A DNA stretch of 64,000 bases, from positions 17,611,919 to 17,675,918 of the forward strand of contig OZ020593.1 in NCBI GenBank assembly GCA_963971535.1. Direction: 5' to 3'. How positions within the stretch are numbered: position 1 is the stretch's first letter; every line of letters starts with the position of its first letter. A program made the translations under genes and the position numbers. The notes beneath the pieces are model-generated. The model was not told the origin of the DNA. It worked only from the letters and a program-made list of their open reading frames with translations, and made no database searches. Shown here piece after piece: positions 7,091 through 61,454 of the stretch. Source of the DNA: Notolepis coatsorum. Lineage: Eukaryota; Chordata; Actinopteri; Aulopiformes; Paralepididae.

Positions 7091-7879
7091 CGAATGAGGA
7101 GAGGAGTAATATGCACAATTAAAAGAATAGTAGACCAGAGACAGAGTTATAACAATAACCGGTGTTTTAATTAAAAGCGCGCTAGCTAAACAGTAATAAT
7201 ACATACAGACGTAAAGTACAAGTAATGCTTTGAAGTATCCCTTTTAGGTTCTTTCAGTAACCTCTCCTTTCGGGAGGGTTAGTTCGATATCAAGTCCTAG
7301 GTTGATTGGATCAACACATTGGGGTTGGTTCAGACGTCTCTGAGGTTATCATCAGTAAACTCTATATCAGTTTATCATTTCAATAGGTAAACGTTTAAAT
7401 ATATTAATTTGAACCTTTAAGTGTGCAGGGAATGCAAATACCTTATTAGGTGAATTTACCCTTTAAACCATCTTTCTTTACAGGAGAACCATCAGTGATT
7501 CAGTTCAATACAGTGTTTTGTATTAAAATAATAATAATTTAAAAAAATATGTATCCAAAATGCACTTTACTTCCTGCCAAAATGCCATAGGCGCGCGACT
7601 GGGACCGGTGCGCTATTATTGTCGCAGCGTATTATGCTCATGTGTTTCCCTACACTTCATGCGTTCTTGGAGGGAAACAAAGTTGTCATGGGTGAACCTG
7701 TAAAAAGCCTATAACTTACCTGCAAATACTCGTTCCATCTCATCTTTTTATTTATTTAAAAATGCGCTGTCTTCTTACTTCCATAGTACATGTACATGTT
7801 TTTAGTTTATCATTTTTATCATTTTCAGTTTATCATTTTTAGTTTATAATTTTTAGTTTTATCATTTATATATTGCATA
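7091..7879. other. No gene recognised
   Basis: AT-rich sequence with no long frame and no clear repeat ends. Confidence 0.4.
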
Positions 7880-8184: not shown

Positions 8185-8502
8185 ACAGAACACCTCAACC
8201 AACTCGCTGAGCAGCTACGGACATATTTCCCACTTATGGATGAATCTCAGATGTGGATTCAACCCATTTTTTTGTTTTAGTTTTGGCCAATCTATGCATG
8301 TAATTCTCATTTTGTTCTTTCGTGTGAAGTATTTTATTTTGTTTGTCATACTTTGGTATGTGTTCTTATTGGATTAAACCTGATGCCTTTAGTGTGCCTA
8401 TGAATAGACTGTGTTGTCTTTTTTATGTTGGGCATTGGGGGTGCGTCAGCTAGGTCGGGAGGTGACAGGGGGTGCATGGCCAAAAAAGTTTGGGAACCGC
8501 TG
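8185..8502 (+). mobile_element. 3' end of a hAT transposon (transposase C-terminus and terminal repeat)
   Basis: The plus strand reads 'LNQLAEQLRTYFPLMDESQ' before a stop near 8279. This resembles the C-terminus of ZBED5/SCAND3-type hAT transposases. The element ends at 8502 with 'ccaaaaaagtttgggaaccgctg', the reverse complement of a CAGCGGTTCCCAAAC terminal repeat. The rest of the element is missing; a LINE tail abuts it on the left. Its right end adjoins the 69-bp minisatellite directly. Confidence 0.65.
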
Positions 8503-8640
8503 TTCTAGAATGTTCTATTATGACATCATACTGTGACATCACAAATGTTCTTACATCTAGAAGATTCTATGTTCTAGAATGTTCTATTATAACATCATAC
8601 TGTGACATCACAAATGTTCTTACATAATAGCATTAACTAT
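8503..8640 (-). repeat. Two units of the 69-bp heat-shock-motif minisatellite
   Basis: Two copies of the same unit found at 11773-12320. Both contain an intact TTCTAGAATGTTC, followed by 'tgacatcatactgtgacatcac'. The tail 'taatagcattaactattt...attcaatggcatTTAA' also matches the end of the right-hand array. The copy therefore represents the same array end, duplicated on the other side of the CDCA7-like frame. Confidence 0.9.
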
Positions 8641-8984
8641 TTATGTTCTTATTCAATGGCATTAAAGGGGCTATGTACTATAAATGTCATTTTTCAGTCT
8701 CTAGCATTGTATTATAGTAATAGGAGTTCGTATCAATGTGTTTTAGTATCTAAATACCATATTGGCGGATTGCTCAGATTCAGCCCAGCCCCTTTCCTCC
8801 TCCAGTAAATCAGGCTATTTTGATTTGAAGGCCTGAGTCACGTCATTCGGGCTCTGGGTAGCGCACAGTGATGCGATTGGCTCTGTGGTTGGAGCTAATG
8901 CCCGCCCCCATTCTACCTAGAATAGAGAGGTACCTCTACCTTCCTACATACCGGAGAACAGGAGTGCAGTCACTTGCCTATCCA

Positions 8985-9476
8985 CCCGGGAGCGATGGCT
9001 AGCTAGTTAGCACCAGCCGGGAGCGATGGCTAGCTAGTTAGCACCAGCCGGGAGCGATGGCTAGCTAGTTAGCACCAGCCGGGAGCGATGCACCAGCCGG
9101 GAGCGATGGCTAGCTAGTTAGCACCAGCCGGGAGCGATGGCTAGCTAGTTAGCACCAGCCGGGAGCGATGGCTAGCTAGTTAGCACCAGCCGGGAGCGAT
9201 GGCTAGCTCACGGCTGGTGCTAACTAGCTAGCCATCGCTCCCGGCTGGTGCATCGCTCCCGGCTGGTGCTAACTAGCTAGCCATCGCTCCCGGCTGGTGC
9301 TAACTAGCTAGCCATCGCTCCCGGCTGGTGCATCGCTCCCGGCTGGTGCTAACTAGCTAGCCATCGCTCCCGGCTGGTGCTAACTAGCTAGCCATCGCTC
9401 CCGGCTGGTGCTAACTAGCTAGCCATCGCTCCCGGGTGGTGCATCGCTCCCGGCTGGTGCTAACTAGCTAGCCTAA
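8985..9476. repeat. Inverted minisatellite (large potential cruciform)
   Basis: Units of about 31 bp ('ccgggagcgatggctagcta' plus 'gttagcacca') run forward from about 8987 to 9207. The same units then run in reverse complement from about 9208 to 9476. Some units are deletion variants of 'gccgggagcgatgcacca' type in both arms. The two arms are near-perfect complements of about 220 bp and more. Confidence 0.95.
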
Positions 9477-9963
9477 CGTTATAGCAAACTATTGAAGCAA
9501 GCTACTGAAGCTAGTCATTACAATACAGTACTGCTCAATACCAACACAACTGCTATAGGATGCTAGGATGGAGACCAGGAAAATACTTTCGTCTTGTTTA
9601 CATCAGGGTCCCCCATTTTCAATTCATTATTACAATTGACATACAGTGGATGCATGTTCCCAAATAACTTTTCTTTTTAATTGCGGGGGGACATTAGGTC
9701 AAATGTGCAGTACTACCAAAGGTCTGGTCGCACGTACAGAACTGTTGCATATAACGGTATGCTGCTCTTTATAAAGTAACGTTATAGCAAACTATTGAAG
9801 CAAGCTAGTCATAATTAAAAACTGCTCAATACAAACACAACTAGTCAGAGGTAAACAAGGTAACGTTACTTATAGCAAGCTATCGAAGCAAGCTGGTCAG
9901 AAGTAAGTACTAACGTTACTCGCTCTTTTCGGCAAGCCATTATACTAACGTTACAACATAAAC

Positions 9964-10068
9964 TTACCACTCGGAAACTATTTGCAAGCCTCGCTGTTGC
10001 AACTCAACTTCTTCTTTCGAAACATAGTCTGGGTCGCTCTCTGGATCCCAAATATACGGTACAGCCAT
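9964..10068 (-). other. Exon-like 34-codon frame with splice donor inside the TTAA element
   Basis: Starting at an ATG (10068, context AGCC on plus), the minus strand encodes MAVPYIWDPESDPDY and continues with an acidic/Glu-rich stretch. In-frame TAA overlaps a strong donor, G|GTAAGT (GT at 9966-9967). This looks like a first coding exon with its donor, without any following exon in sight. It could be the remnant of the N-terminal exon of the parental transposase gene or a captured host exon. I do not recognise the protein family with confidence. Confidence 0.45.
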
Positions 10069-10350
10069 GTTGTATTAGTAGTATAAAGTGTTCACCTGGA
10101 AGGAAGGACGGGGAGATGGGCGGAGCTATTTGGTGGGTGGCTGTCACTCAAAGCATTCTGCTAGTATGGGTGGAGCCAAGCCAATAACAGCTTGAAATCT
10201 TGAGGCAGAAAAATGCTGGTTTTGAGTACTTGATTAGAAATATAAAACAATGATTATTTTTGGAATAAACCTTACAGATGTGTTACATAGACTCACAGGA
10301 ATTGTGTAAAGTTGCCCAAATAGTGCTAGGAATAGCAGTACATAGCCCCT

Positions 10351-10566
10351 TTAACTATTTATGTCCCTAGGACTAAATAGTTATGAATCTGAACCCTGGG
10401 TTACATCCCTTCTATCCTAATGCACGTCCCTGTGCATATTATCCCAGGACTACATTATCACAATCCTATGGGGTTCTTGGGAGTCGGAGTCATCTAACGA
10501 GTCTGTGATTACTGAGCTTAGACTCTGGAATAGTGACTGGATTATCGTTACTAGTGGGTTTCCTAG
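10351..10566. other. Array tail copy and 3' flank of the CDCA7-like frame
   Basis: Bases 10352-10408 ('ctatttatgtccctaggac ... ccctgggttacat') repeat 12346-12400. The array end therefore flanks the CDCA7-like locus on both sides. The remaining 160 bp show no consensus AATAAA on the minus strand. Confidence 0.7.
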
Positions 10567-11517
10567 TCAGGGATAAGTCAGGACTTTTGGAGGTTCTCTA
10601 TGTCTTGTCGACCTTCTTGGCTGTTCATCTATGACATCTCTTTCGTTTTCTTTTTCCACATTGTCTTGGACATTCTCCTGCTCCAGTTCTCTCTTCAAGC
10701 TTTTCAGATAGGCGTGGACGTTGTCGTGGCCGTGGTACTTGGCCCGGTAGACCAGCACGCCCGTGGCACAGCGGCCGTCCCGCGCCCGGCATAAGCTGCA
10801 GTTGCAGATGCCTCTGCATGGTGGGCACTGCCACTCCGGGTCCAGCAGGGCGTCCCGGACCTCCTCTCCGTAGCGGTTGCGTAGACACGGGCCACAGAAC
10901 TGGCCCCTCACCCCGTTGCACTCTTCGCTCCTGCAGTTGGTCTTGGTGTCGATCGTCTTCTGGCGGCACTGGTGGCAGGTGGATCCCGTGGCCTGGCTGT
11001 AGACCTTCTCCCTCACGTTGGTGCAGATGAGGTCCAGCTCGGCCTGCGTGACCTCCTCCACCGGACGCACCACGTGGGGGAACACCATGTGACTGTGACG
11101 TCGGGGCTGCGCCATGTGACTGTGACGTCGGGGCTGCGCCTGCTCCTTGACCTCCTTGTAGTGCCGGCCGCGGCGCAGCCGGCTGGGGGGCTTGTCCACC
11201 TGCGTGCGGGACCTGGTGTGGGGCCGAGAGGCGCGCTCCGGGTTCCTCCTGCGGGATCCGGGGGGGCCCCTGGACTGACGGGGGGCCCGACGGGGCTTGT
11301 TGGACGCCGACAAGGCCATCCCTCTGGGGAACAGGCCGGGCACCGTGTGCAGCTCTGCCATCAGCTTGGCGAGCATGGCTTTGTTCTCCTGGATATTCAG
11401 AGCCCTCTTGTCCAGGAAGCTGGCCTCTCCAGAGTCAGAGTCAGAGTCGGACTCTGCTGCGTCTCTGGGCTGAGGGAGCGGTTCCGACACAGGGAACTTC
11501 ATGGCGGGGAACTTCAT
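10567..11517 (-). CDS. cdca7: Intronless CDCA7-like zinc-finger protein (retrocopy, 316 aa)
   Basis: CDCA7 proteins are nuclear partners of the remodeller HELLS and support DNA methylation in heterochromatin. The frame has an acidic SDSDSDSGE stretch (about 22-31) and the helix 'ALNIQENKAMLAKLMAEL' (39-56). The C-terminal cysteine-rich domain (about 156-275) has CHQCRQKT, GQFCGPCLRNRYGEE and CPPCRGICNCSLC, all cysteines intact. Known family members are spliced; this copy is one exon, so I infer a retrocopy. Family-like residues 'TLKVAMKFPA' begin just before the chosen ATG (11517, context gccATGa), and an in-frame TGA lies about 70 nt further upstream. The usual N-terminus is therefore missing. 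Two small internal duplications (MKFPAMKFP; QPRRHSHMA/QPRRHSHMV) and a C-terminal tail 'RRSTRHREPPKVLTYP' are unusual. No poly(A) tract or flanking short duplication was seen. Expression is not shown by sequence. Confidence 0.85.
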   Translation of the reverse strand: MKFPAMKFPVSEPLPQPRDAAESDSDSDSGEASFLDKRALNIQENKAMLAKLMAELHTVPGLFPRGMALSASNKPRRAPRQSRGPPGSRRRNPERASRPHTRSRTQVDKPPSRLRRGRHYKEVKEQAQPRRHSHMAQPRRHSHMVFPHVVRPVEEVTQAELDLICTNVREKVYSQATGSTCHQCRQKTIDTKTNCRSEECNGVRGQFCGPCLRNRYGEEVRDALLDPEWQCPPCRGICNCSLCRARDGRCATGVLVYRAKYHGHDNVHAYLKSLKRELEQENVQDNVEKENERDVIDEQPRRSTRHREPPKVLTYP

Positions 11518-11764
11518 GGCCACCTTCAGCGTCTGGCCCGGCTTGCGGCCTCGCCTGCGAGGGTTCCGAGTCCACGTCCACTTTCAAAACACGTCGGTAC
11601 TACCGAGTATCGTCCCGCGTGGGCACACGTGGTGATGGGTGGTCTGGAACTGTTCCGGGATGCTGGTTGAGAATTGCAGGTTTCAGTCTATGTTGTTTAG
11701 TCCATTCAGTCTGTTCAGTGCTGCTTCAGATGCCGAGGAGAGGAGATGACTGAGGAGCCGCCCG

Positions 11765-11772
11765 CTTATATA
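11765..11772 (-). promoter_or_regulatory. TATA box (TATATAAG) upstream of the CDCA7-like frame
   Basis: The minus strand reads CTATATAAGCGGGCGGC. It lies about 250 bp upstream of the ATG at 11517 and about 10 bp downstream of the nearest heat-shock-type motif. A start site would be expected near 11740-11745, giving a 5' leader of about 225 nt. The leader contains one tiny upstream ATG (ATGGACTAA). It is a consensus match only. Confidence 0.6.
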
Positions 11773-12320
11773 GAGACCTATGTTCTAGAATGTTCTATTA
11801 TGACATCATACTGTGACATCACAAATGATCTTACATCTAGAAGTTTCTATGTTCTAGAATGTTCTATTATGACATCATACTGTGACATCACAAATGTTCT
11901 TACATCTAGAAGGTTCTATGTTCTAGAATGTTATATTATGACATCATACTGTGACATCACAAATGTTCTTACATCTAGAAGTTTCTATGTTCTAGAATGG
12001 TCTATTATGACATCATACTGTGACCTCACAAAGTTCTTACATCTAGAAGGTTCTATGTTATAGAATGTTCTATTATGACATCATACTGTGACATCACAAA
12101 TGTTCTTACATCTAGAAGGTTCTATGTTCTAGAATGTTCTCATACTGTGACATCACAAAAGTTCTTGCATCTAGAAGATTCTATGTTCTAGAATGTTCTA
12201 TTATGACATCATACTGTGACATCACAAATGTTCTTACATCTAGAAGATTCTATGTTCTAGAATGTTCTATTATGACATCATACTGTGACATCACAAATGT
12301 TTTTACATAATAGCATTAAC
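11773..12320 (-). repeat. 69-bp minisatellite, eight units, each with a heat-shock-element-like motif
   Basis: Eight units of about 69 bp (one shortened, near 12130-12180). The core TTCTAGAATGTTC fits the three-arm heat-shock-factor consensus (nTTCnnGAAnnTTCn). It is perfect in units 1, 2, 6, 7 and 8 counted from 11780 and has one altered arm in units 3, 4 and 5. Unit junctions add GAAgnTTC. Each unit also has TGACATCA and TGTGACATCAC, which resemble CRE/AP-1-type sites. The array lies immediately upstream of the TATA box. Binding is inference. Confidence 0.9.
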
Positions 12321-12484
12321 TATTTGTTCTTATTCAATGGCATTAACTAGTTATGTCCCTAGGACTAAATAGTTATGAATCTGAACCCTGGGTTACATAC
12401 GCAGGTGTGTCTTGTGTGTCTCTTACCCTCTGTGTGCATGTCAGTCCGGTCTTTCTGTTCAGTCCTTGTTGTTCGAGGCTAGTG
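12321..12484. other. Flank of the minisatellite
   Basis: Holds the right-hand copy of the array tail, including the intact TTAA empty site near 12339-12342. No gene. Confidence 0.6.
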
Positions 12485-18059: not shown

Positions 18060-21000
18060 TCAGCCGCACACTGCGGTCTTTACCTTCTCAGCTGCTGCGA
18101 ACCACAGGTAAATTCCAGCCTGCCCTACCCCGATCACCCGGGCCGTGGATATCTCAAGATAAATCACATCCAATAGAGTTAGGGACCAGTTAATCATTGT
18201 AAGCTTCTCAGGCTCCTTCCATCTCATTGCTATTAGCTTCTTCGCTGCTGTGACGCCCGCTAGGACAACCCTTTTCAGTTGTACGGACGCGGGTAGTGTC
18301 GTTATATCGTTCAGGAGTAGCGTAACAGCTGTGAATGGGATAGTTAAGCCACACAGATCTGAAAGTTTGTCCGTTATTGACCTCCAGAAGCGGGCCACTG
18401 GTGGGCAATCCCAATACATATGCATATAAGTGCCAGTGGCCTTTTGAGAGCACAAAGTGCACCGAGAGTCGGTTATCAGTCCCATAGCAAATAGCTTCCT
18501 AGGTGTAAGATAGGTCCTATGAATATAATTAAAATTAATTTGCTGGTGATTGGGGTTGCGGGAAGATAATGCCACATTTGCCCAAACATCATCCCAGTCA
18601 AACTCGGGGTCCAACTCCGGTATATCCACACGCCAGATTGTATCCAATGATAAATTTTTATACGTGGATTGAATTAAGAGCGTATAAAAGTCGGAGACAA
18701 ACCCTCTGGATGTCGTCCTGTCCACTATGAGCCTGAGGAAGGGGTGTGGGTGCAAGGCTTGAGCCCACGGTACGCCATGCGCCCTCAGTGCTGACCTTAG
18801 TTGAAGGTAAAGAAAGAAGGACTCGCCGGGTAGATCATAAAATTCTCTTAAGTCCTGAAACGCACGGAGGCCGTTCTTATCATAAATATCCTCCAGAGTA
18901 TGCACTCCCCTCCTTTGCCATTGAGGAATATTAACCGGCTTGTGTCCAACAAGTAATTGCTGGTTATTAAAAATTGGAGAGTCCAGGTGCCAAGGGCATT
19001 TAACCCCACACGACCTCTGTACATTACGCCACGTTTGGATCACGTGAGTTATGATCGGTCCATACCTCAGCCGGCATTTCGCAATAGAGACAGTGGAGTA
19101 CACTACATCCTGTAATCTTAGCGGAGACACCGCCGCCGCTTCTAAGGAGCGCCACGATACAGCCTCTACAGGGTCTAGCCAGCACATCAAAGGTCTCAGT
19201 GAAAAGGACCAGAAATACAGTTTAAAATCAGGGATTGCGAGGCCCCCATCTTGTTTCCTACGTTGAGTAGTAGCCCTTTTGATTCTCGGGCGTTTGTTAT
19301 TCCAGACAAACTTAGATACCATCGATTGTACCTTGCGCCAGTGGTCTATTGGAGGGGGCAGGGGGAGCATTGAGCTAATAAAATTTATCCTAGGCAGGAT
19401 GTTCATTTTGATTATGGAAGCCCGGGCTTGTAAGGAGTTAGGAAGGGACGACCACCTGTCTAGATCCTGGCGTATTTTATCATAAGTACCCGTGAAGTTG
19501 TACTTAGTAGTTTGGTTCAGCGTGGGGAATATCTCTATGCCCAGGTATTTGAAATGTTCTACTATGGGGATATCAGCTGGTAGTCGTACCGCCTTGGCCA
19601 GTTCATTAAGAGGTAGGCAGGCTGATTTGTTCCAGTTAATCTTAAAACCTGACAATTTACCAAAGTCGTCGATTATCCTCAATAATTTTGTGGCCGACCG
19701 GGAGGGGTCGTCCATGAAAATCAGCAGGTCATCCGCATAGAGAGCAATTTTGTGTGGAGTATTGTTGACCATTATGGGGACGATGTCCTCCGATTGCCTA
19801 ATAAATTGGGCCAAAGGTTCGAGGGAAAGCGCGAACAGTCCCGGGCTCAGAGGGCAACCCTGTCTAGAAGATCTGGAGACTGGAAAGAGTGTGGAACAGT
19901 TTTTGCCTGTCAGTATCATCGCAGACGGCGAGGCATACAGGACTTTAATCATATGAATAAAACTCTTTCCAAGACCCATGACCTCAAGTACCTTCCACAG
20001 ATATGACCACTCAAGTCTGTCAAACGCCTTCATGGCATCCAAAGACAGAACTGTGGATGGAGTTGTATTGTCTTTACTGTTATCGATTACATGCAACAGC
20101 CTCCTAAGATTATCTGCAGCCAGACGCCCCGGGATAAAACCAGTTTGATCGCAGTGTACCAATACAGACATAAATCTCTGCAGGCGACGGGCCAGCACCT
20201 TGGCAAACACCTTTAAATCGGCCCCGAGAAGACTCAAGGGTCTATAGCTACCACAATCATTGGGATCTTTGTCCTTTTTGAGAAGTAAAGAAATCAACGC
20301 CATATTGACATCTCTTGAGAACTCCCCTTGTTCGATAGCGTAATTGATCATATCGAGCATCAATGGACCCAGTTGGTCCCAGAAAGCTAAATACACTTCG
20401 GGTGGAATACCATCCCAGCCTGGCGCCTTACCCCTCTGCATTTCAACAATAGTCTCCCTCAATTCTACGAGAGTAATCGGTCTCCCCAGTTCCTTGGCCT
20501 CTTCCTCAGAAATGTGGGGTATCTCAAGCCCGCCAATGAACGATTCAAATCTAGAGTCATCCAGATTACCCTCTGAGCTATATAACTGTGAGTAAAACTC
20601 TTTAAAAGTGTCATTGATCTTTTTCGAATCAGTAGTGACTGCACCCTGGCTCGTCCTAATCGAGGGGATATCTGAGAAATGATCATTTGATCGTATTTTC
20701 ATTGCCAATAGATGGCTAGGTCTGGAGCCGTGAAAATAGTAATTTTGTCTTGTCCTGTGTATCAAAAACTCAGACTGTTGTTTAAGTATGGAGTTTATTT
20801 CTTTTTTGACTATCTTACGTTGTGTGTTTAGTCGTTCATTATAGTCAGTTTGCAAGGATGCGTATAGGTCCGCATATAATGATTCCAGTCCTTCTAGCTT
20901 TTTTGACCGGGATTTTCGCAAATTGGAGGCAAATAGTGTGACATGACCCCTGATGAATCCTTTCAATGCGTTCCACAGGACCCTAGGGTCTTCTACTGTG

Positions 21001-21830
21001 CCAACGTTGATCTGCAAAAATTCAGCTAGTTTACTCCTGAACTCAGAACAGAAGTCATCGTTCTTTAGCAAGGTCGAATTAAAACGCCATCTGGGAGCTC
21101 TTGCGGAGAGCCTGCCAAAGGTTGCCGTAAGGAAAATCCCCTTGTGGTCTGAGAGAGCCAAGGGAACCAATGAGACATCGAAACTATCAAACATATTAGG
21201 GGACGCGAATGCATAGTCAATTCGAGAGAAGCTTTTGTGTCTGGCTGACAGGTGAGAGTAATCTCTGAGGGTGGGGTTGCATAAGCGCCAGAGGTCTGAG
21301 AGCCCCGTGTCTTTGGCCCACATCCTGAGGGCCTTAGAGGCCCGTTTCTGGTCGCTCGTTTCAGAGGGCCCAGACCTATCCATCTCCGCATCCCAGCACG
21401 CATTAAAATCGCCACCCACAATGAGAGCGTATCCATTAAGTTCCAACATATTCTTCGTGATTGTATTATAGAACGCTGAATCAAATGTGTTAGGAGCATA
21501 CAATGCTATTATAGCCATCTTCCTATGCAAGAATTCAACTTTTGCTATAGTAATCCTTCCCTCCGTGTCCGACCATACATCCAAGATTTTGATATCAAGG
21601 TTACGTCTTGTAACTATGACTACTCCTTTCGTCTTATCATCGGCTGAGGATGCGGAGATAACGTGATATTGCCGATTTGCCAGTCTTGACACGTCACCTA
21701 CCATTAAATGCGTCTCACTAAGGAGAGCAAGGTCAATATTTCTCCTCTTCAATAGCCAAAGGACACTGGCACGCTTGTGTGGGGCGTTAAGCCCTCCTGC
21801 GTTCCAAATTAAAATATTCAATTTAGCCAT
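18060..21830 (-). CDS. L1-like ORF2: endonuclease and reverse transcriptase (1256 aa)
   Basis: Retrotransposon replicase that nicks target DNA and copies the element RNA into it. The N-terminal AP-type endonuclease keeps its active-site set: N10 (IWNAGG), E39 (LSETHL), Y111 (YAPN), D141 and N143 (GGDFN), D205 (SRIDY), D228-H229 (SDH). The reverse transcriptase follows, with GKAPGWDGIP, 'SYRPLSLLGADLKVFAKVLA', RQGCPLSP and the catalytic YADD at 698-701. A C-terminal C-x2-C...H...C knuckle (CTLCSQKATGTYMHMYWDC) is near 1120-1140. The start codon has an optimal context (gaccATGG). No stop or frameshift interrupts it, so the protein may be functional. L1 clade is inferred from motif style; Tx1 is the main alternative. 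Confidence 0.95.
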   Translation of the reverse strand: MAKLNILIWNAGGLNAPHKRASVLWLLKRRNIDLALLSETHLMVGDVSRLANRQYHVISASSADDKTKGVVIVTRRNLDIKILDVWSDTEGRITIAKVEFLHRKMAIIALYAPNTFDSAFYNTITKNMLELNGYALIVGGDFNACWDAEMDRSGPSETSDQKRASKALRMWAKDTGLSDLWRLCNPTLRDYSHLSARHKSFSRIDYAFASPNMFDSFDVSLVPLALSDHKGIFLTATFGRLSARAPRWRFNSTLLKNDDFCSEFRSKLAEFLQINVGTVEDPRVLWNALKGFIRGHVTLFASNLRKSRSKKLEGLESLYADLYASLQTDYNERLNTQRKIVKKEINSILKQQSEFLIHRTRQNYYFHGSRPSHLLAMKIRSNDHFSDIPSIRTSQGAVTTDSKKINDTFKEFYSQLYSSEGNLDDSRFESFIGGLEIPHISEEEAKELGRPITLVELRETIVEMQRGKAPGWDGIPPEVYLAFWDQLGPLMLDMINYAIEQGEFSRDVNMALISLLLKKDKDPNDCGSYRPLSLLGADLKVFAKVLARRLQRFMSVLVHCDQTGFIPGRLAADNLRRLLHVIDNSKDNTTPSTVLSLDAMKAFDRLEWSYLWKVLEVMGLGKSFIHMIKVLYASPSAMILTGKNCSTLFPVSRSSRQGCPLSPGLFALSLEPLAQFIRQSEDIVPIMVNNTPHKIALYADDLLIFMDDPSRSATKLLRIIDDFGKLSGFKINWNKSACLPLNELAKAVRLPADIPIVEHFKYLGIEIFPTLNQTTKYNFTGTYDKIRQDLDRWSSLPNSLQARASIIKMNILPRINFISSMLPLPPPIDHWRKVQSMVSKFVWNNKRPRIKRATTQRRKQDGGLAIPDFKLYFWSFSLRPLMCWLDPVEAVSWRSLEAAAVSPLRLQDVVYSTVSIAKCRLRYGPIITHVIQTWRNVQRSCGVKCPWHLDSPIFNNQQLLVGHKPVNIPQWQRRGVHTLEDIYDKNGLRAFQDLREFYDLPGESFFLYLQLRSALRAHGVPWAQALHPHPFLRLIVDRTTSRGFVSDFYTLLIQSTYKNLSLDTIWRVDIPELDPEFDWDDVWANVALSSRNPNHQQINFNYIHRTYLTPRKLFAMGLITDSRCTLCSQKATGTYMHMYWDCPPVARFWRSITDKLSDLCGLTIPFTAVTLLLNDITTLPASVQLKRVVLAGVTAAKKLIAMRWKEPEKLTMINWSLTLLDVIYLEISTARVIGVGQAGIYLWFAAAEKVKTAVCG

Positions 21831-28274: not shown

Positions 28275-29010
28275 CAGTGTGATGGCTGTGACTGAATACA
28301 GTCTGTCAGTGCTTTGTAGTTTGGCTCATACCTACAGACAGCCAGTCTGAGACAGTCTGTCAGTACTTTGTAGTTTGGCTCATGGCTACAGACAGCCAGT
28401 CTGAGACAGTCTGTCAGTACTTTGTAGTTTGGCTCATGGCTACAGACAGCCAGTCTGAGACAGTCTGTCAGTGCTTTGTAGTTTGGCTCATAGCTACAGA
28501 CAGCCAGTCTGAGACAGTCTGTCAGTGCTTTGTAGTTTGGCTCATAGCTACAGACAGCCAGTCTGAGACAGTCTGTCAGTGCTTTGTAGTTTGGCTCATG
28601 GCTACAGACAGCCAGTCTGAGACAGCATGTGAGTACTTTGTAGTTTGGCTCATGGCTACAGACAGCCAGTCTGAGACAGTCTGTCAGTACTTTGTAGTTT
28701 GGCTCATGGCTACAGACAGCCAGTCTGAGACAGCATGTGAGTACTTTGTAGTTTGGCTCATGGCTACAGACAGCCAGTCTGAGACAGCATGTGAGTACTT
28801 TGTAGTTTGGCTCATGGCTACAGACAGCCAGTCTGAGACAGCATGTGAGTACTTTGTAGTTTGGCTCATGGCTACAGACAGCCAGTCTGAGACAGCATGT
28901 GAGTACTTTGTAGTTTGGCTCATGGCTACAGACAGCCAGTCTGAGACAGCATGTGAGTACTTTGTAGTTTGGCTCATGGCTACAGACAGCCAGTCTGAGA
29001 CAGTCAGTAC
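28275..29010 (+). repeat. 54-bp minisatellite, about 13 units
   Basis: The unit starts 'atggctacagacagccagtc'. Because 54 is a multiple of three and the unit lacks stops, open frames arise on both strands (plus MATDSQSETVCQYFVVWL, minus MSQTTKYSHAVSDWLSVA). Two unit variants alternate ('gtctgtcagtactttg' and 'gcatgtgagtactttg'). A stray unit lies at 33789-33860. Confidence 0.95.
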
Positions 29011-29145: not shown

Positions 29146-30037
29146 CAGGGTTCCCACAGACATTGCAAAATGAAATTCAAGGACTTTTAAGTACTTTTCC
29201 AATCACTATTTTTCATTTTCAAGGATGTCACTCGAAGGATACAATTCACTTTTAAATGCTGTTTTTTTTAAAGCTTCTTCTTGGCCTGCTTGCCAGCTAG
29301 AAAAAGCTAGAGCATCACACGAGAAGAAGAAATGAGGAAAAGCAGTTGGAGCGAGCGAGACAGCGACAGTTAAATATATTTATTACATGGTGTTTTAACA
29401 TTCACCGAAATGCTTGATTGTGATTGGTCAATAGCCCCCGACAGCGGTGAATTATTTTTCGATAACCACCGGTGATTATTGTTTTTCGCAGCTGGAGTAA
29501 TCAAGCCCCACTGACACACACTGTTTCAGTGCAATCAGACACACCTGCCGGGCTGCCCGCGATAATAATAATCACTTTATTTGGGCTGACAGAGCCACAG
29601 AACAACTGCGATTTGTCAAATGAATTAGGTATATTGTTAGTAAGTTAGCCATGTAATAAGCGGGATAATGTATAGCTATACTCGGTCATCATCGCAAAAT
29701 AATTGACCTTCACTGACGTTTAAAACACCTCGCCTCTGTATTTTAAACTCTGTGTCGGTCAATTATTTTGCGACAATGACCTCGTTATTTTATTATATTA
29801 TATTATATATATTATATTATATTATTATATACATTATCCCTTACATATATTTTTTAAATCAAAACGATTTCTTGATGGATGAACAAAACATTCAATGCGA
29901 ATGGTTGGTTTTAATGTCAAGGACTTTTTAAGCACCTTGTTAAAAAAAATCTGTTTTCAAGGAATTCCAGACCTACCTTGACTTTTTTGTAAAAAAACAA
30001 GCACTTTAAGCACTTCAAGGACCTTGTGCAAACCCTG
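29146..30037. mobile_element. hAT-like MITE with a second element inside
   Basis: The ends CAGGGTTCCCACA and TGTGCAAACCCTG are mirrored, with 'ttcaaggac/gtccttgaa' motifs beside both. It sits at the edge of the 27-bp minisatellite: the left flank (29110-29145) already shows 'ctgctgacgagtc' and 'gtctcctgtc'. Only cctgtc is shared directly at both borders. The interior 29382-29844 is a separate insertion. Confidence 0.75.
29382..29844. mobile_element. 463-bp hairpin-forming element nested in the MITE
   Basis: It is flanked by atatattt on both sides (29374-29381 and 29845-29852). It is homologous to 35439-35928. Its right half contains 'gcaaaataattgacc' facing 'ggtcaattattttgcg' around a short loop, a strong stem. 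It ends 'attatcccttac'. The 8-bp duplication suggests a hAT-type or related DNA element. Confidence 0.75.
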
Positions 30038-32690
30038 CCTGTCTCTCTGCTGACGAGTCTCCTGTCTGTCTCTCTGCTGACGAGTCTCCTGTCTCTCTGC
30101 TGACGAGTCTCCTGTCTGTCTCTCTGCTGACGAGTCTCCTGTCTGTCTCTCTGCTGACGAGTCTCCTGTCTGTCTCTCTGCTGACGAGTCTCCTGCCTGT
30201 CTCTCTGCTGACGAGTCTCCTGTCTGTCTCTCTGCTGACGAGTCTCCTGCCTGTCTCTCTGCTGACGAGTCTCCTGCCTGTCTCTCTGCTGACGAGTCTC
30301 CTGTCTGTCTCTCTGCTGACGAGTCTCCTGTCTGTCTCTCTGCTGACGAGTCTCCTGTCTGTCTCTCTGCTGACGAGTCTCCTGCCTGTCTCTCTGCTGA
30401 CGAGTCTCCTGTCTGTCTCTCTGCTGACGAGTCTCCTGCCTGTCTCTCTGCTGACGAGTCTCCTGCCTGTCTCTCTGCTGACGAGTCTCCTGTCTGTCTC
30501 TCTGCTGACGAGTCTCCTGTCTGTCTCTCTGCTGACGAGTCTCCTGTCTGTCTCTCTGCTGACGAGTCTCCTGTCTGTCTCTCTGCTGACAAGTCTCCTG
30601 TCTGTCTGCTGACGAGTCTCCTGTCTGTCTCTCTGCTGACGAGTCTCCTGTCTGTCTCTCTGCTGACGAGTCTCCTGTCTCTCTGCTGACGAGTCTCCTG
30701 TCTCTCTGCTGACGAGTCTCCTGTCTGTCTGCTGACGAGTCTCCTGCCTGTCTCTCTGCTGACGAGTCTCCTGTCTGTCTCTCTGCTGACGAGTCTCCTG
30801 TCTGTCTGCTGACGAGTCTCCTGTCTGTCTCTCTGCTGACGAGTCTCCTGTCTGTCTCTCTGCTGACGAGTCTCCTGTCTGTCTCTCTGCTGACGAGTCT
30901 CCTGTCTCTCTGCTGACGAGTCTCCTGTCTGTCTCTCTGCTGATGAGTCTCCTGTCTGTCTCTCTGCTGACGAGTCTCCTGCCTGTCTCTCTGCTGACGA
31001 GTCTCCTGTCTCTCGCTCTGCTGACGAGTCTCCTGTCTCTCGCTCTGCTGACGAGTCTCCTGTCTCTCTGCTGACGAGTCTCCTGTCTGTCTCTCTGCTG
31101 ACGAGTCTCCTGTCTGTCTCTCTGCTGACGAGTCTCCTGTCTCTCTGCTGATGAGTCTCCTGTCTGTCTCTTTGCTGACGAGTCTCCTGTCTGTCTCTCT
31201 GCTGACGAGTCTCCTGAAGTCTCCTGTCTCTCTGCTGACGAGTCTCCTGTCTGTCTCTCTGCTGACGAGTCTCCTGTCTGTCTCTCTGCTGACGAGTCTC
31301 CTGTCTGTCTCTCTGCTGACGAGTCTCCTGTCTCTCTGCTGACGAGTCTCCTGTCTGTCTCTCTGCTGACGAGTCTCCTGTCTCTCTGCTGATGAGTCTC
31401 CTGTCTGTCTCTCTGCTGACGAGTCTCCTGTCTCTCTCTCTGCTGACGAGTCTCCTGTCTGTCTGCTGACGAGTCTCCTGTCTGTCTCTCTGCTGACGAG
31501 TCTCCTGTCTGTCTCCTGACGAGTCTCCTGTCTGTCTCTCTGCTGACGAGTCTCCTGTCTGTCTCTCTGCTGACGAGTCTCCTGTCTGTCTCTCTGCTGA
31601 CGAGTCTCCTGTCTGTCTCTCTGCTGACGAGTCTCCTGTCTGTCTCTCTGCTGACGAGTCTCCTGTCTGTCTGCTGACGAGTCTCCTGTCTGTCTCTCTG
31701 CTGACAAGTCTCCTGTCTGTCTCTCTGCTGACGAGTCTCCTGTCTGTCTGTCTGCTGACGAGTCTCCTGTCTGTCTCTCTGCTGACGAGTCTCCTGTCTG
31801 TCTCCTGTCTGTCTCTCTGCTGACGAGTCTCCTGTCTGTCTCTCTGCTGACGAGTCTCCTGTCTCTCTGCTGACGAGTCTCCTGTCTGTCTCTCTGCTGA
31901 CGAGTCTCCTGTCTGTCTGCTGACGAGTCTCCTGTCTCTCTGGTGACGAGTCTCCTGTCTCTCTGCTGACGAGTCTCCTGTCTGTCTCTCTGCTGACGAG
32001 TCTCCTGTCTGTCTCTCTGCTGACGAGTCTCCTGTCTGTCTCTCTGCTGATGAGTCTCCTGTCTCTCTGCTGACGAGTCTCCTGTCTGTCTCTCTGCTGA
32101 CGAGTCTCCTGTCTGTCTCTCTGCTGACAAGTCTCCTGTCTGTCTCTCTGCTGACGAGTCTCCTGTCTGTCTCTCTGCTGACGAGTCTCCTGTCTGTCTC
32201 TCTGCTGACGAGTATCCTGTCTCTCTGCTGACGAGTCTCCTGTCTCTCTGCTGACGAGTCTCCTGTCTGTCTCTCTGCTGATGAGTCTCCTGTCTGTCTG
32301 TCTGCTGACGAGTCTCCTGTCTGTCTCTCTGCTGACGAGTCTCCTGTCTGTCTCTCTGCTGACGAGTCTCCTGTCTGTCTCTCTGCTGACGAGTCTCCTG
32401 TCTCTCTGCTGACGAGTCTCCTGTCTGTCTCTCTGCTGACGAGTCTCCTGTCTGTCTCTCTGCTGACGAGTCTCCTGTCTGTCTCTCTGCTGACGAGTCT
32501 CCTGTCTGTCTCTCTGCTGACGAGTCTCCTGTCTGTCTCTCTGCTGACGAGTCTCCTGTCTGTCTCTCTGCTGACGAGTCTCCTGTCTGTCTCTCTGCTG
32601 ACGAGTCTCCTGTCTGTCTCTCTGCTGACGAGTCTCCTGTCTCTCTGCTGACGAGTCTCCTGTCTGTCTCTCTGCTGACGAGTCTCCTGA
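30038..32690 (-). repeat. 27-bp minisatellite array, 2.65 kb
   Basis: The unit on plus is 'gtctcctgtctgtctctctg' plus 'ctgacga'. A 23-bp variant lacks one 'tgtc'. Roughly 100 units. All three minus frames of the unit are open, giving artefactual frames of 737 and 947 codons made of RETDRRLVS, ETRQQRDRQ and SSAERQTGD blocks. Single units carry point changes (atgag, acaag). Confidence 0.97.
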
Positions 32691-55841: not shown

Positions 55842-55964
55842 TCACTGCCCTCACATCGCTCACTGCTTTTAAACAAAATCTGCAACAGATCATAACCGAC
55901 TGTTGCACCCGCTGACTGCCTCCCAATCGCACATACAGTATAGCCCTCAGACTCTTCTCTCCTC

Positions 55965-56272
55965 CCCCCAGGCCCCCTCACCTACCTCCCTCCTTCTCCC
56001 CCCAGGCCCCCTCACCTACCTCCCTCCTTCTCCCCCCAGGCCCCCTCACCTACCTCCCTCCTTCTCCCCCCAGGCCCCCCCACCTACCTCCCTCCTTCTC
56101 CCCCCAGGCCCCCTCACCTACCTCCCTCCTTCTCCTCCTAGGCCCCCTCACCTACCTCCCTCCTTCTCCCCCCTAGGCCCCCTCACCTACCTCCCTCCTC
56201 CTCCCCCCAGGCCCCCTCACCTACCTCCCTCCTTCTCCCCCCAGGCCCCCTCACCTACCTCCCTCCTTCTCC
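55965..56272 (+). repeat. 34-bp minisatellite, about 9 units
   Basis: The unit is 'aggccccctcacctacctcc' plus 'ctccttctcccccc'. Three units make 102 bp, so a frame of 34-residue proline-rich blocks appears. Confidence 0.95.
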
Positions 56273-56984
56273 CCCTTTCTCTCTCTCCTCTCTCCCTCTG
56301 GTTCTCACTCTCCCTTTCTCTTTTCCCCCCTCTTCTCTTTCCTTCTACCCTTTATTTATTGTAAATTGTCCTTGTATTGCTATTGCTACGGTATTTTTTT
56401 TTAAATTTGATTTACTTGCATGTACATCATTTGTTTTCGTTGCAGTCTCCCACCCCCCCCCCCCCCCCCCTCTTCCCCCAAAAGGCCTTTGCTTTTTGGT
56501 CAGGCTGATTTTGTATATACGATTTGTTCTTACCTGGGTATGTAAAGATTAAAAAAATAAAATTATTATAATAATGTAGAAGGTTAAACCATCGTGTCAT
56601 GTCTGCAACAGATATGGATGTCGCTGCGCCGTCCCCCGGAATGGAATCATATTACTTCCAGTGTAGGCTTGGGAATGTGCTTTTTAAAAGGAATGCCATT
56701 TTTATCCAAGGAAATATCGACCTTTTCTTCGTCGGCCGACTCGAAAAGACACTTAGCGTGGTGTTTCCCTCTCTACCTCGGGGCAGACGGGATCCTCTTT
56801 AGGAACTTCGGGTTGAACGTATCACTTCACAAGTTCAGGAAAACGGCTGGAATATATATATATCGATGTCTGTCCGACGACGAGTCCTTTCACTTTTGCA
56901 CCGTGTTCGCTTCAAAGGTGTCACTAGTCGATGACACACGTACTGTAGCACCTTTGAGGCATATCACACGTTTGAACCCTTTCA

Positions 56985-59389: not shown

Positions 59390-59504
59390 GTCATCTGAAA
59401 ATGTGATGATTTGTGATGTCAGAGAGACACCGCTGCATGATAATGTGGCTGTGTGGCATCAGGTACATGATGAGCTGCACACAGTGGCTGGAGCCCAGGC
59501 TCAA
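59390..59504. other. Spacer between duplication copies
   Basis: Unassigned sequence before the TTAA-element remnant. Confidence 0.5.
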
Positions 59505-59668
59505 AACGGCTTAAGATCTTGAGGTAGAAAAATGCTGTTTTTGAGGACTTGATTAGAAATACAAAACAATGAATAAAAAAATATAAAAATTACAGAGGTG
59601 TTCCATAGACTCACAGGAATTGTGTAAAAGTGCCCAAATAGTGAAAGAAATAGTAAAATAGTTCCCCT
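59505..59668 (+). mobile_element. 3' remnant of the TTAA element seen at 8666-10350
   Basis: 'cttgattagaaatacaaaac' and 'catagactcacaggaattgt' match 10230-10320. It ends 'gttcccct' followed by TTAA (59669-59672) at the exact start of duplication copy B. In copy A the corresponding place reads 'acacccttaaactc'. Confidence 0.75.
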
Positions 59669-59802
59669 TTAAACTCATTGCCCTCACATCGCTCACTGCT
59701 TTTAAACAAAATCTGCAACAGATCATAACCGACTGTTGCACCTGCTGACTGCCTCCCAATCGCACGTACAGTATAGCCCTCAGACTCTTTTCTCCTCCCC
59801 CA

Positions 59803-60375
59803 GGCCCCCTCACCTACCTCCCTCCTTCTCCCCCCAGGCCCCCTCACCTACCTCCCTCCTTCTCCCCCCAGGCCCCCTCACCTACCTCCCTCCTTCTCCC
59901 CCCAGGCCCCCTCACCTACCTCCCTCCTTCTCCCCCCAGGCCCCCTCACCTACCTCCCTCCTTCTCCCCCCAGGCCCCCTCACCTACCTCCCTCCTTCTC
60001 CCCCAGGCCCCCTCACCTACCTCCCTCCTTCTCCCCCCAGGCCCCCTCACCTACCTCCCTCCTTCTCCCCCCAGGCCCCCTCACCTACCTCCCCCCTTCT
60101 CCCCCCAGGCCCCCTCACCGACCTCCCTCCTTCTCCCCCCAGGCCCCCTCACCGACCTCCCTCCTTCTCCCCCCAGGCCCCCTCACCTACCTCCCTCCTT
60201 CTCCCCCCAGGCCCCCTCACTGACCTCCCTCCTTCTCCCCCCAGGCCCCCTCACCTACCTCCCTCCTTCTCCCCCCAGGCCCCCTCACCTACCTCCCTCC
60301 TTCTCCCCCCAGGCCCCCTCACCTACCTCCCTCCTTCTCCCCCCAGGCCCCCTCACCGACCTCCCTCCTTCTCCC
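59803..60375 (+). repeat. 34-bp minisatellite, about 17 units
   Basis: Same unit as 55965-56272 with nearly twice as many copies. Some units carry 'accgacctcc' or 'actgacctcc'. Confidence 0.95.
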
Positions 60376-61454
60376 CCTTTCTTCTCTCTCCTCTCTCCCT
60401 CTGGTTCTCACTCTCCCTTTCTCTTTTCCCCCCTCTTCTCTTTTCTTCTACCCTTTATTTATTGTAAATTGTCCTTGTATACTATTGCTACTGTATTTTT
60501 TTTTTATTTGATTTATGTACATCATTTGTTTTTGTTGCAGTCCCCCCCCCCCCTTCCTCCAAAAGGCCTTTGCTTTTTGGTCAGGCTGATTTTGTATATA
60601 CGAATTTGTTCTTACTTGCTTGCCTGGGTATGTAAAGATTAAAAAAATAAAATAATTATAATAATGTAGAAGGTTAAACCATCGTGTCATGTCTGCAACA
60701 GATATGGATGTCGCCGCGCCGTCCCCCGGAATGGAATCATATTACTTCCAGTGTAGCCTTGGGAATGTGCTTTTTAAAAGGAATGCCATTTTTATCCAAG
60801 GAAATATCGACCTTTTCCTCGTCGGCCGACTCGAAAAGACACTTAGCGTGGTGTTTCCCTCTCTACCTCGGGGGCAGACGGGATCCTCTTTAGGAACTTC
60901 GGGGTGAACGTATCACTTCACAAGTTCAGGAAAACGGCTGGAATATATATATCGATGTCTGTCCGACGACGAGTCCTTTCACTTTTGCATCGTGTTCGCT
61001 TCAAAGGTGTCACTAGTCGATGACACACGTACTGTAGCACCTTTGAGGCATATCTTCACACGTCTTAACCCTTTCACTACCACACTACCGAAGGTTAAGG
61101 GTTAACCCTTTGTCGTGTGGCAGTGAAAGGGTTTGATTGATTGAACATTTTATTAACAGATTGCAGAATGGGTACAATACAGTATGGCTCAATACACACA
61201 ATTGTTAAGGGGATGCAGACCAGAGAAAGACTTTCGTCGTGTTTACATCAGGGTCCCCCATTTTCAATTCATAACAAACCTGAACCTTAACCTTCTGTAT
61301 CGTCGCAGTGAAAGGGTTAACCCTTTGGTAGTGTGGTTGGTAGTGAAAGAGGGGTACTGCTTATTTCCCGTTTAACCTTCTGTAGTGTGGTAGTGAAAGG
61401 GTTAAAAAAGAAAAGAAGGCCCAGTGAGAAAACCTATGCAGATATACTTGAGAG

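Follow-up and report, generated by a model that had tools for sequence, protein, structure and literature searches.

We analyzed a window of 64,000 nucleotides from the genome of the fish Notolepis coatsorum (assembly GCA_963971535.1, contig OZ020593.1, positions 17,611,919 to 17,675,918). Its minus strand carries an intronless copy of the host gene cdca7a, which is fused in frame to the C-terminal end of a Gypsy (Ty3-type) Pol and is flanked on both sides by long terminal repeat (LTR) sequence. A preliminary description of this stretch had noted that a CDCA7-like retrogene follows tandemly repeated heat-shock-element motifs and a TATA box, and had proposed that a mobile copy of an epigenetic regulator gained stress-inducible control through minisatellite growth. 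The layout was borne out, in that a mobile intronless cdca7 copy lies directly behind a promoter-like array with a TATA box. The proposed gain of control by minisatellite growth was not supported.

The cdca7a-derived frame and its fusion to Gypsy Pol

The open frame (10567-11517, minus strand) is intronless and encodes 316 amino acids, namely cdca7a residues followed by a Gypsy Pol tail. The cdca7a-derived part as a whole (10675-11584, minus strand) consists of seven parental exons joined without introns. When the assembly (3.42 Gb, 4,787 contigs) was scanned, the parent was found to be cdca7a on another contig of the same genome (hereafter C8). The corresponding exons of the parent are 222, 78, 192, 126, 150, 137 and 34 bp long, the last being counted to the stop codon, with AG at all seven acceptors and GT at all six donors; the six introns are absent from the copy. 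Since the parental exons occur elsewhere in the same genome, the copy is beyond chance, and the C8 gene is its source.

Copy and parent differ by 40 substitutions in 873 aligned bases (95% identical). Four indels lie inside the frame of the copy, two deletions (21 and 36 bp) and two insertions (9 and 27 bp), none of which shifts the reading, and a 1-bp insertion lies upstream of the present start codon. The N-terminal parental exons at C8:157417816-157417944 and around 157421002-157421163 were not found in the copy, which has lost about 110 N-terminal residues. The closest database relative, among the best 120 of 1893, was cdca7a of Diretmus argenteus (71%). The parental gene (C8:157453962-157456224) itself has unusual changes at conserved residues, VPGLF to VGGMF and R to C at codon 120, where the copy differs from it.

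A complete zf-4CXXC_R1 domain (E = 2.7e-38) lies within the frame, whose residues 143-280 match CDCA7 structures. The unbroken intronless frame with a complete CDCA7 domain was thus confirmed. The copy-only changes F242L and L258R hit residues that are kept in 104-105 of 105 fish sequences. A putative HELLS-binding helix, which we placed by resemblance and not by alignment to the Xenopus helix, is retained. All 11 cysteines (C181, 184, 195, 200, 208, 211, 231, 234, 238, 240 and 243) keep the spacing of class I zf-4CXXC_R1 domains, CXXCX10CX4CX7CXXCX19CXXCX3CXCXXC (PMC10538959). The residues matching human R274, Q275, G294, R304 and S330, the roles of which are described in PMC11343034, are also retained. 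Human R274, G294 and R304 correspond to R185, G205 and R215 of the copy, the human numbering being obtained from the alignment to the 8yv8 chain, whose first residue was taken as human 264.

Past residue 280 or so, the frame (its last 36 residues or so) and the sequence beyond its stop codon correspond to the C-terminal end of Pol from fish Gypsy elements. The Pol-derived segment (10459-10680, minus strand) is identical at 57 of 77 positions (E = 1.5e-24) to a protein (P0122) that carries RVT_1, RNase H and the integrase H2C2 and rve domains. The 316-residue frame stops within this tail at 10567-10569, where the relatives read on. Ten proteins match the tail, all with E < 1e-4; nine of them have reverse transcriptase, RNase H and integrase domains, and the tenth, a Merluccius protein named Tafazzin, is listed without those domains. 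A query of the tail only, run against proteins of 174-553 amino acids, gave one candidate and no match; the long query was needed.

A search of the assembly with the 316-residue protein gave 326 candidates, of which 126 were scored. One match is the window itself, five are exons of the C8 gene and four belong to two paralogues; the other 116 cover only about residues 270-316, that is, the Pol tail. The window is the only one of the 126 that holds both the cdca7a and the Pol parts. Seven of the 116 tail-only matches were fetched. The hexamer CAGGAG, common to cdca7a and Gypsy (10675-10680, minus strand in the window), was present in all seven. The parent reads GAGCAGGAG followed by GCTGAG and Gypsy reads CAGGAG followed by AATGTC, and the chimera crosses over within CAGGAG. 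No poly(A) was found where the cdca7a part ends; there is an in-frame fusion to Gypsy pol instead.

The two LTRs and their promoter

The copy is preceded by the 5' LTR of a Gypsy element (11610-12397, minus strand), which starts with TGTAACCC, contains U3, the TATA box and the start of the transcribed part, and is truncated on its 3' side. At least 57 stretches of the genome match this LTR (40 of 4485 candidates scored), two of them being the window locus and some LTRs being counted as two rows. A complete member of the family (C23:8389500-8403000) has an LTR pair of 809 and 791 bp. No primer-binding site follows the 5' LTR in the window; the LTR stops at 11610 and gives way to a repeat piece and cdca7a.

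On the other side of the copy, a purine-rich tract resembling a polypurine tract (10406-10418, minus strand), also seen in the complete element, lies ahead of a second LTR. A 55-bp direct repeat starting with TGTAACCC begins at 12397 and at 10405; the first piece of the 3' LTR (10351-10405, minus strand) is identical to 12397-12343 at 54 of 55 positions. The second piece (8501-8665, minus strand) contains two heat-shock units, continues where the 55-bp piece left off at TTAA, and is identical to the 5' LTR at 161 of 163 compared bases, with one 2-bp gap. In total, the 5' and 3' LTRs differ by 3 substitutions in 218 compared bases and have the same orientation on both sides of the copy. We read the 55-bp repeat, the 8501-8665 piece and the 5' LTR as the two LTRs of one element. 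The unit copies at 8501-8665, the direct repeat and the Pol tail within the frame had been missed in the preliminary description.

The two pieces of the 3' LTR are split by a later transposon of 1,685 bp (8666-10350), which has TTAA on both sides and perfect 14-bp inverted ends, AGGGGCTATGTACT. The second piece is interrupted at 8500 by a sequence with the end CAGCGGTTCCCAAACTTTTTTGGCCATGCACCCCC, which we take to be hAT-like. The transposon holds 31/49-bp arrays of its own, which turn round at about 9206, and a stretch at 59485-59672 of the window is 81% alike to it. A further 61 bp (7436-7496, minus strand) match a stretch near the end of the complete family LTR at 79%. These bases could be left over from the 3' LTR; they could also belong to another repeat, since the matched stretch is found again just outside that LTR.

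The tandem array (11778-12308, minus strand) lies inside U3. Its eight units of about 69 bp are, in order, 69, 69, 59, 69, 68, 69, 69 and about 57 bp long. The perfect three-block heat-shock element GAAnnTTCnnGAA, of which TTCnnGAAnnTTC, given in the preliminary description, is the plus-strand form, occurs on the minus strand in five units (11783-11795, 11852-11864, 12127-12139, 12186-12198 and 12255-12267), and the remaining three match it at 8 of 9 bases. The array is thus located as had been described; its units are less uniform than eight of 69 bp, and the perfect motif is confined to five of eight. The TATA box, TATATAAG (11765-11772, minus strand), lies 10 bp past the last heat-shock element of the array, in agreement with the distance first noted.

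The promoter was compared with those of 16 other LTR copies over 338 bp, namely 330 bp upstream of the TATA box and the box. These copies were drawn from 19 loci (L020-L038), of which L033, L034 and L036 were excluded for having no TATATAAG box where looked for, and L038 for lying at the same place as L042; L042 was also excluded and L041 was added. At least one perfect GAAnnTTCnnGAA was found in every one of the 17 copies, the window included, and 68 in total. Among 63 other trimer patterns used as a control, the runner-up (5 occurrences) was the same element in another phase, and the remaining 62 occurred at most once. Dinucleotide shuffles of the 17 sequences yielded a mean of 0.00-0.01 elements per 338 bp, and the array is therefore beyond chance. 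The nearest GAAnnTTCnnGAA ends 10-13 bp ahead of the box in 13 copies and 58-100 bp ahead in four. The excluded loci and L013 also carry heat-shock trimers, one to five each, and the complete member (L041, L042) has them in U3 and near the 3' end of each LTR.

The array and the TATA box form the promoter region, U3, of a Gypsy LTR. The heat-shock motif is a property of the element family and did not arise at the cdca7a copy. Since all 17 copies carry the trimers, the promoter arrived with its vehicle. The number of array units differs between LTR copies, and minisatellite growth is therefore a detail and not the origin. The proposal that stress control was gained at this locus by such growth was accordingly rejected.

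The 17 copies are mutually related (median identity 0.91), which weighs against a strong promoter claim. Extra conservation of the heat-shock columns was considered as proof of selection and was rejected, since their mean identity among the LTR copies was 0.941 against 0.943 for the other U3 columns. A CpG-free promoter as a trait of the family was also rejected. The U3 of the window copy has no CpG (expected 15.6), and this is confined to it among the 17; the 16 other copies have 88 (expected 158.3), near the background of 516 (expected 855.2) in 20 kb of parental cdca7a intron. Most 69-bp units also hold two TGATGTCA octamers, which we liken to CRE/ATF sites whose CpG may have turned into TpG. 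Such octamers number 9 per 338 bp in the window and 3-7 in each of the 16 other copies. In our judgement, heat induction of the LTR family is possible, though somewhat short of an even chance, and that of the window copy is doubtful.

The 5' junction and the proposed route of capture

The LTR and cdca7a are separated by 25 nt (11585-11609, minus strand) that belong to a high-copy repeat and that we read as a small exon. Its 24-nt core (11585-11608) has 3,885 + 3,894 genome matches with up to three mismatches, against 1 + 0 for the reversed control. In 20 of 20 exact copies of the repeat, GT stands directly after the last shared base (GTAAG in 3, GTAGG in 4 and GTTCG in 13), and CGATACTCGG is found on the other side in 18. 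In the window, a cdca7a exon begins, with its first base, directly after the last repeat base. Such a join has the pattern of splicing. Because the repeat ends at the point after which its genomic copies have GT, and the exon is complete at its start, the captured RNA was probably a non-standard spliced transcript.

It is worth noting that the repeat occupies about 7,800 places in the genome at up to three mismatches, and that the exact copies read (n = 20) carry GT after GTGTTTTG. Because of this GT, the repeat could supply exons to host genes.

On the LTR side, 14 distinct copies were compared; 13 of them lose homology at 11610 and one does so at 11607. Beyond the break the LTR family mostly reads GG[C/T]GGTGTGC, and the window has the repeat piece. 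At the meeting point the LTR reads ACGA, the 14 copies having GACGA in 12 and GATGA in two, so that CGA is common to the LTR and the repeat where they meet. With up to three mismatches allowed, the LTR-repeat junction was found at a single place in the genome.

We conclude, with a probability of about 90%, that a Gypsy LTR retrotransposon captured the host gene cdca7a. The origin of the 5' join is less certain. In a Gypsy particle, reverse transcriptase would have left Gypsy RNA at CAGGAG and moved onto a cdca7a RNA that was spliced in a non-standard way and carried a repeat-derived exon. A second switch, from the cdca7a RNA to LTR RNA, may have taken place at the shared CGA. These switches would drop the remainder of the LTR, which measures about 450 bp in the complete element, and the primer-binding site. 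Because the primer site was lost, the 5' LTR would have been completed through R/U5 homology. The loss would also explain the absence of a sister copy; no second copy of the chimera was found in the assembly, either among the 126 scored matches or by the junction search at up to three mismatches. The LTR can presumably transcribe the copy, perhaps more strongly under heat via heat-shock factor (HSF), which would give a CDCA7-Pol-tail protein.

Several observations weigh against this account. A search of the 31.7-kb parental intron that precedes the joined exon did not find the high-copy repeat; a repeat exon located in that intron was therefore rejected, and the proposed exon is without a source at the parent in the assembly. 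Without the primer site, the final step of reverse transcription departs from the standard course. No end of the 3' LTR, where a target-site duplication would be expected, was identified within the window. All four indels of the frame are in frame, for which the chance is 0.012 at 1/3 each, a hint of constraint. Finally, the synonymous divergence from the parent (13/202) exceeds that between the LTRs (3/218; Fisher p = 0.009), as it might if the capture predated the insertion. Without CpG-related changes, about seven of the twelve synonymous codon changes in a split made by eye, p rises to 0.32.

The last point bears on the age of the chimera. In the divergence analysis, from which 15 of 120 proteins were dropped for lying outside 385-415 amino acids, the branch of the copy was the longest of 106 rows (0.41), with 45 copy-only against 6 Diretmus-only changes. 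An old chimera that was re-mobilised recently was considered and tentatively rejected. Because the parent is 95% identical to the copy, the long branch comes mostly from the species' own cdca7a, which is distant from the databases. The leftover excess of synonymous over LTR divergence is partly due to CpG. The data fit a single recent capture event and are also compatible with an older capture.

There is another possible interpretation of the 5' junction, a variant that has Gypsy-made capture in common with the account above, in which the capture began in DNA, in a manner like retroviral transduction. An LTR would have inserted upstream of the cdca7a exon within that gene, and splicing would have linked a read-through RNA to the exon, leaving the 3' join as the only template switch. 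Such a start would suit the joining of the 5' part at the exact exon start and the GT by the donor side in all 20 repeat copies. The very same intron of the parent also holds a short sense fragment of a related LTR (C8:157423256-157423457), which may be a coincidence. However, this fragment is short, its longer pieces are about 80% alike, and the family has many copies. Neither the repeat nor the LTR-repeat junction was found in the intron, and the junction was found nowhere else in the genome. We therefore consider a start in DNA unlikely.

Fate of the copy and comparison with known systems

The preliminary description had named the ratio of nonsynonymous to synonymous divergence (dN/dS) against the parental cdca7 gene as a check. 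Over 285 codons, with codons touching gaps excluded, dS was 0.067 (13/202.2) and dN was 0.043 (27/652.8), a ratio of 0.63. For a neutral copy of a constrained gene, the expected ratio is near 0.5 plus half of the parent's ratio. Purifying selection on the captured cdca7a was thus not detected in this pairwise comparison, and since the value of 0.63 agrees with this neutral expectation, nothing indicates that the copy was kept as a regulator. The proteins of copy and parent differ at 23 residues, of which 16 changed in the copy and 6 in the parent by our assignment, with 1 given to neither side; one of the 16 is ambiguous, since Diretmus shares the copy's residue at parental codon 121. If half of the synonymous changes are the copy's own, dN/dS on its branch is roughly 0.76. 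The probability that 24 substitutions leave no stop is about 0.47, and the open frame is therefore unsurprising. Most likely, the copy evolves close to neutrally and is neither a working gene nor maintained.

A retained heat-inducible gene, the protein of which would act with HELLS at hemimethylated DNA, perhaps as a dominant negative, appears very improbable on this basis. The class-specific spacing of the 11 cysteines, the kept residues matching the five human ones, the stretch resembling the HELLS-binding helix, the in-frame indels and the heat-shock elements of the promoter all speak for it. Both dN/dS values, F242L and L258R, the loss of about 110 N-terminal residues, the finding of one copy and the unsurprising open frame speak against it. 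One could further imagine that heat activates the LTR through HSF in the germ line or soma, and that the CDCA7-Pol-tail protein, which keeps the putative helix and the reader of hemimethylated CpG and lacks the N-terminus, shifts HELLS and loosens the methylation of Gypsy copies. We regard such feedback as a long shot. If true, a by-product of a retrotransposon would feed back on its own silencing, within a burst that activates Gypsy copies.

A processed retrogene made by a LINE and landing by chance beside an LTR would also be intronless and truncated at its 5' end, as LINE copies often are. However, there is no poly(A), and the cdca7a end is fused in frame to Gypsy pol via six shared bases; the purine tract and the LTR come next, and the same LTR flanks both sides. 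The Pol fusion largely refutes this origin, which is scarcely credible. An assembly artefact uniting unrelated pieces would account for the single LTR-repeat junction in the assembly and can practically be dismissed, as the locus lies within a 134-Mb contig and the pieces share one orientation, microhomology at their junctions and a biologically sensible order.

Other features of the window include an open LINE ORF2-like frame of 1,256 amino acids (18060-21830, minus strand; RVT_1, E = 1.3e-34; Exo_endo_phos, E = 8.6e-13). About 101 copies of a 27-bp unit at 30034-32689 read as a 931-residue open frame, and a 54-bp array at 28298-29005 likewise gives a 215-residue frame. The same 34-bp unit forms two arrays about 3.5 kb apart (55962-56275 and 59797-60377).

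The chimera is a retrocopy of the LTR-mediated kind. It is an intronless copy of a multi-exon gene, it has the same LTR on both sides, and it is joined with microhomology to sequence internal to the element. It is not a self-propagating gene-carrying element, since one copy, no purifying selection and no primer site were found. LTR-mediated retroposition was reportedly described by Tan et al. in Genome Research in 2016. In this established process, host mRNA is copied in the retrotransposon with template switching at microsimilarities (PMC5408686), and the window agrees with it in the host mRNA, the switch at microsimilarities and the LTR on both sides. Unlike it, the window also has a spliced-looking repeat piece ahead of the cdca7a part, an open frame that runs on into the C-terminus of Pol, and an LTR promoter of heat-shock type. 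Crocodilian endogenous retroviruses captured KIT-ligand and nectin3, with host mRNA between LTRs and an open frame (PMC4299795). Those captures are under purifying selection, and nectin3 is found in several insertions, whereas the window holds one near-neutral copy carried by Gypsy. Retrotransposons of dinoflagellates and charophytes carry DNMT (PMC5890265). There, too, a host gene of the DNA-methylation machinery was taken up; however, these elements are multiplied, conserved and enzyme-encoding, while the window has a single copy of CDCA7, an accessory factor, without a primer site.

Capture of host genes by LTR elements is thus already known, and what the locus adds is the combination and its anatomy. 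We found no capture of CDCA7 by a retrotransposon and no heat-shock LTR in fish in the literature, as covered by titles and the openings of abstracts, with some matches listed only in part. The locus is mainly a clear example of elements picking up genes, and it records, base by base and at both junctions, the capture of a host mRNA by a vertebrate Gypsy element. The captured gene encodes a factor that helps to maintain DNA methylation, which is the system by which such elements are silenced.

The model for heat-shock elements in LTRs is ONSEN/COPIA78 of Arabidopsis (PMC3907296). Like ONSEN, the family described here carries these elements in its LTRs throughout (17 of 17 copies); unlike ONSEN, it is a Gypsy family of a vertebrate, and its response to heat is putative. 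The ONSEN promoter is described as having no CG sites, which in the present family holds for the U3 of the window copy only. A vertebrate Gypsy family with heat-shock elements near its TATA box is therefore a lead to a possible animal counterpart of ONSEN.

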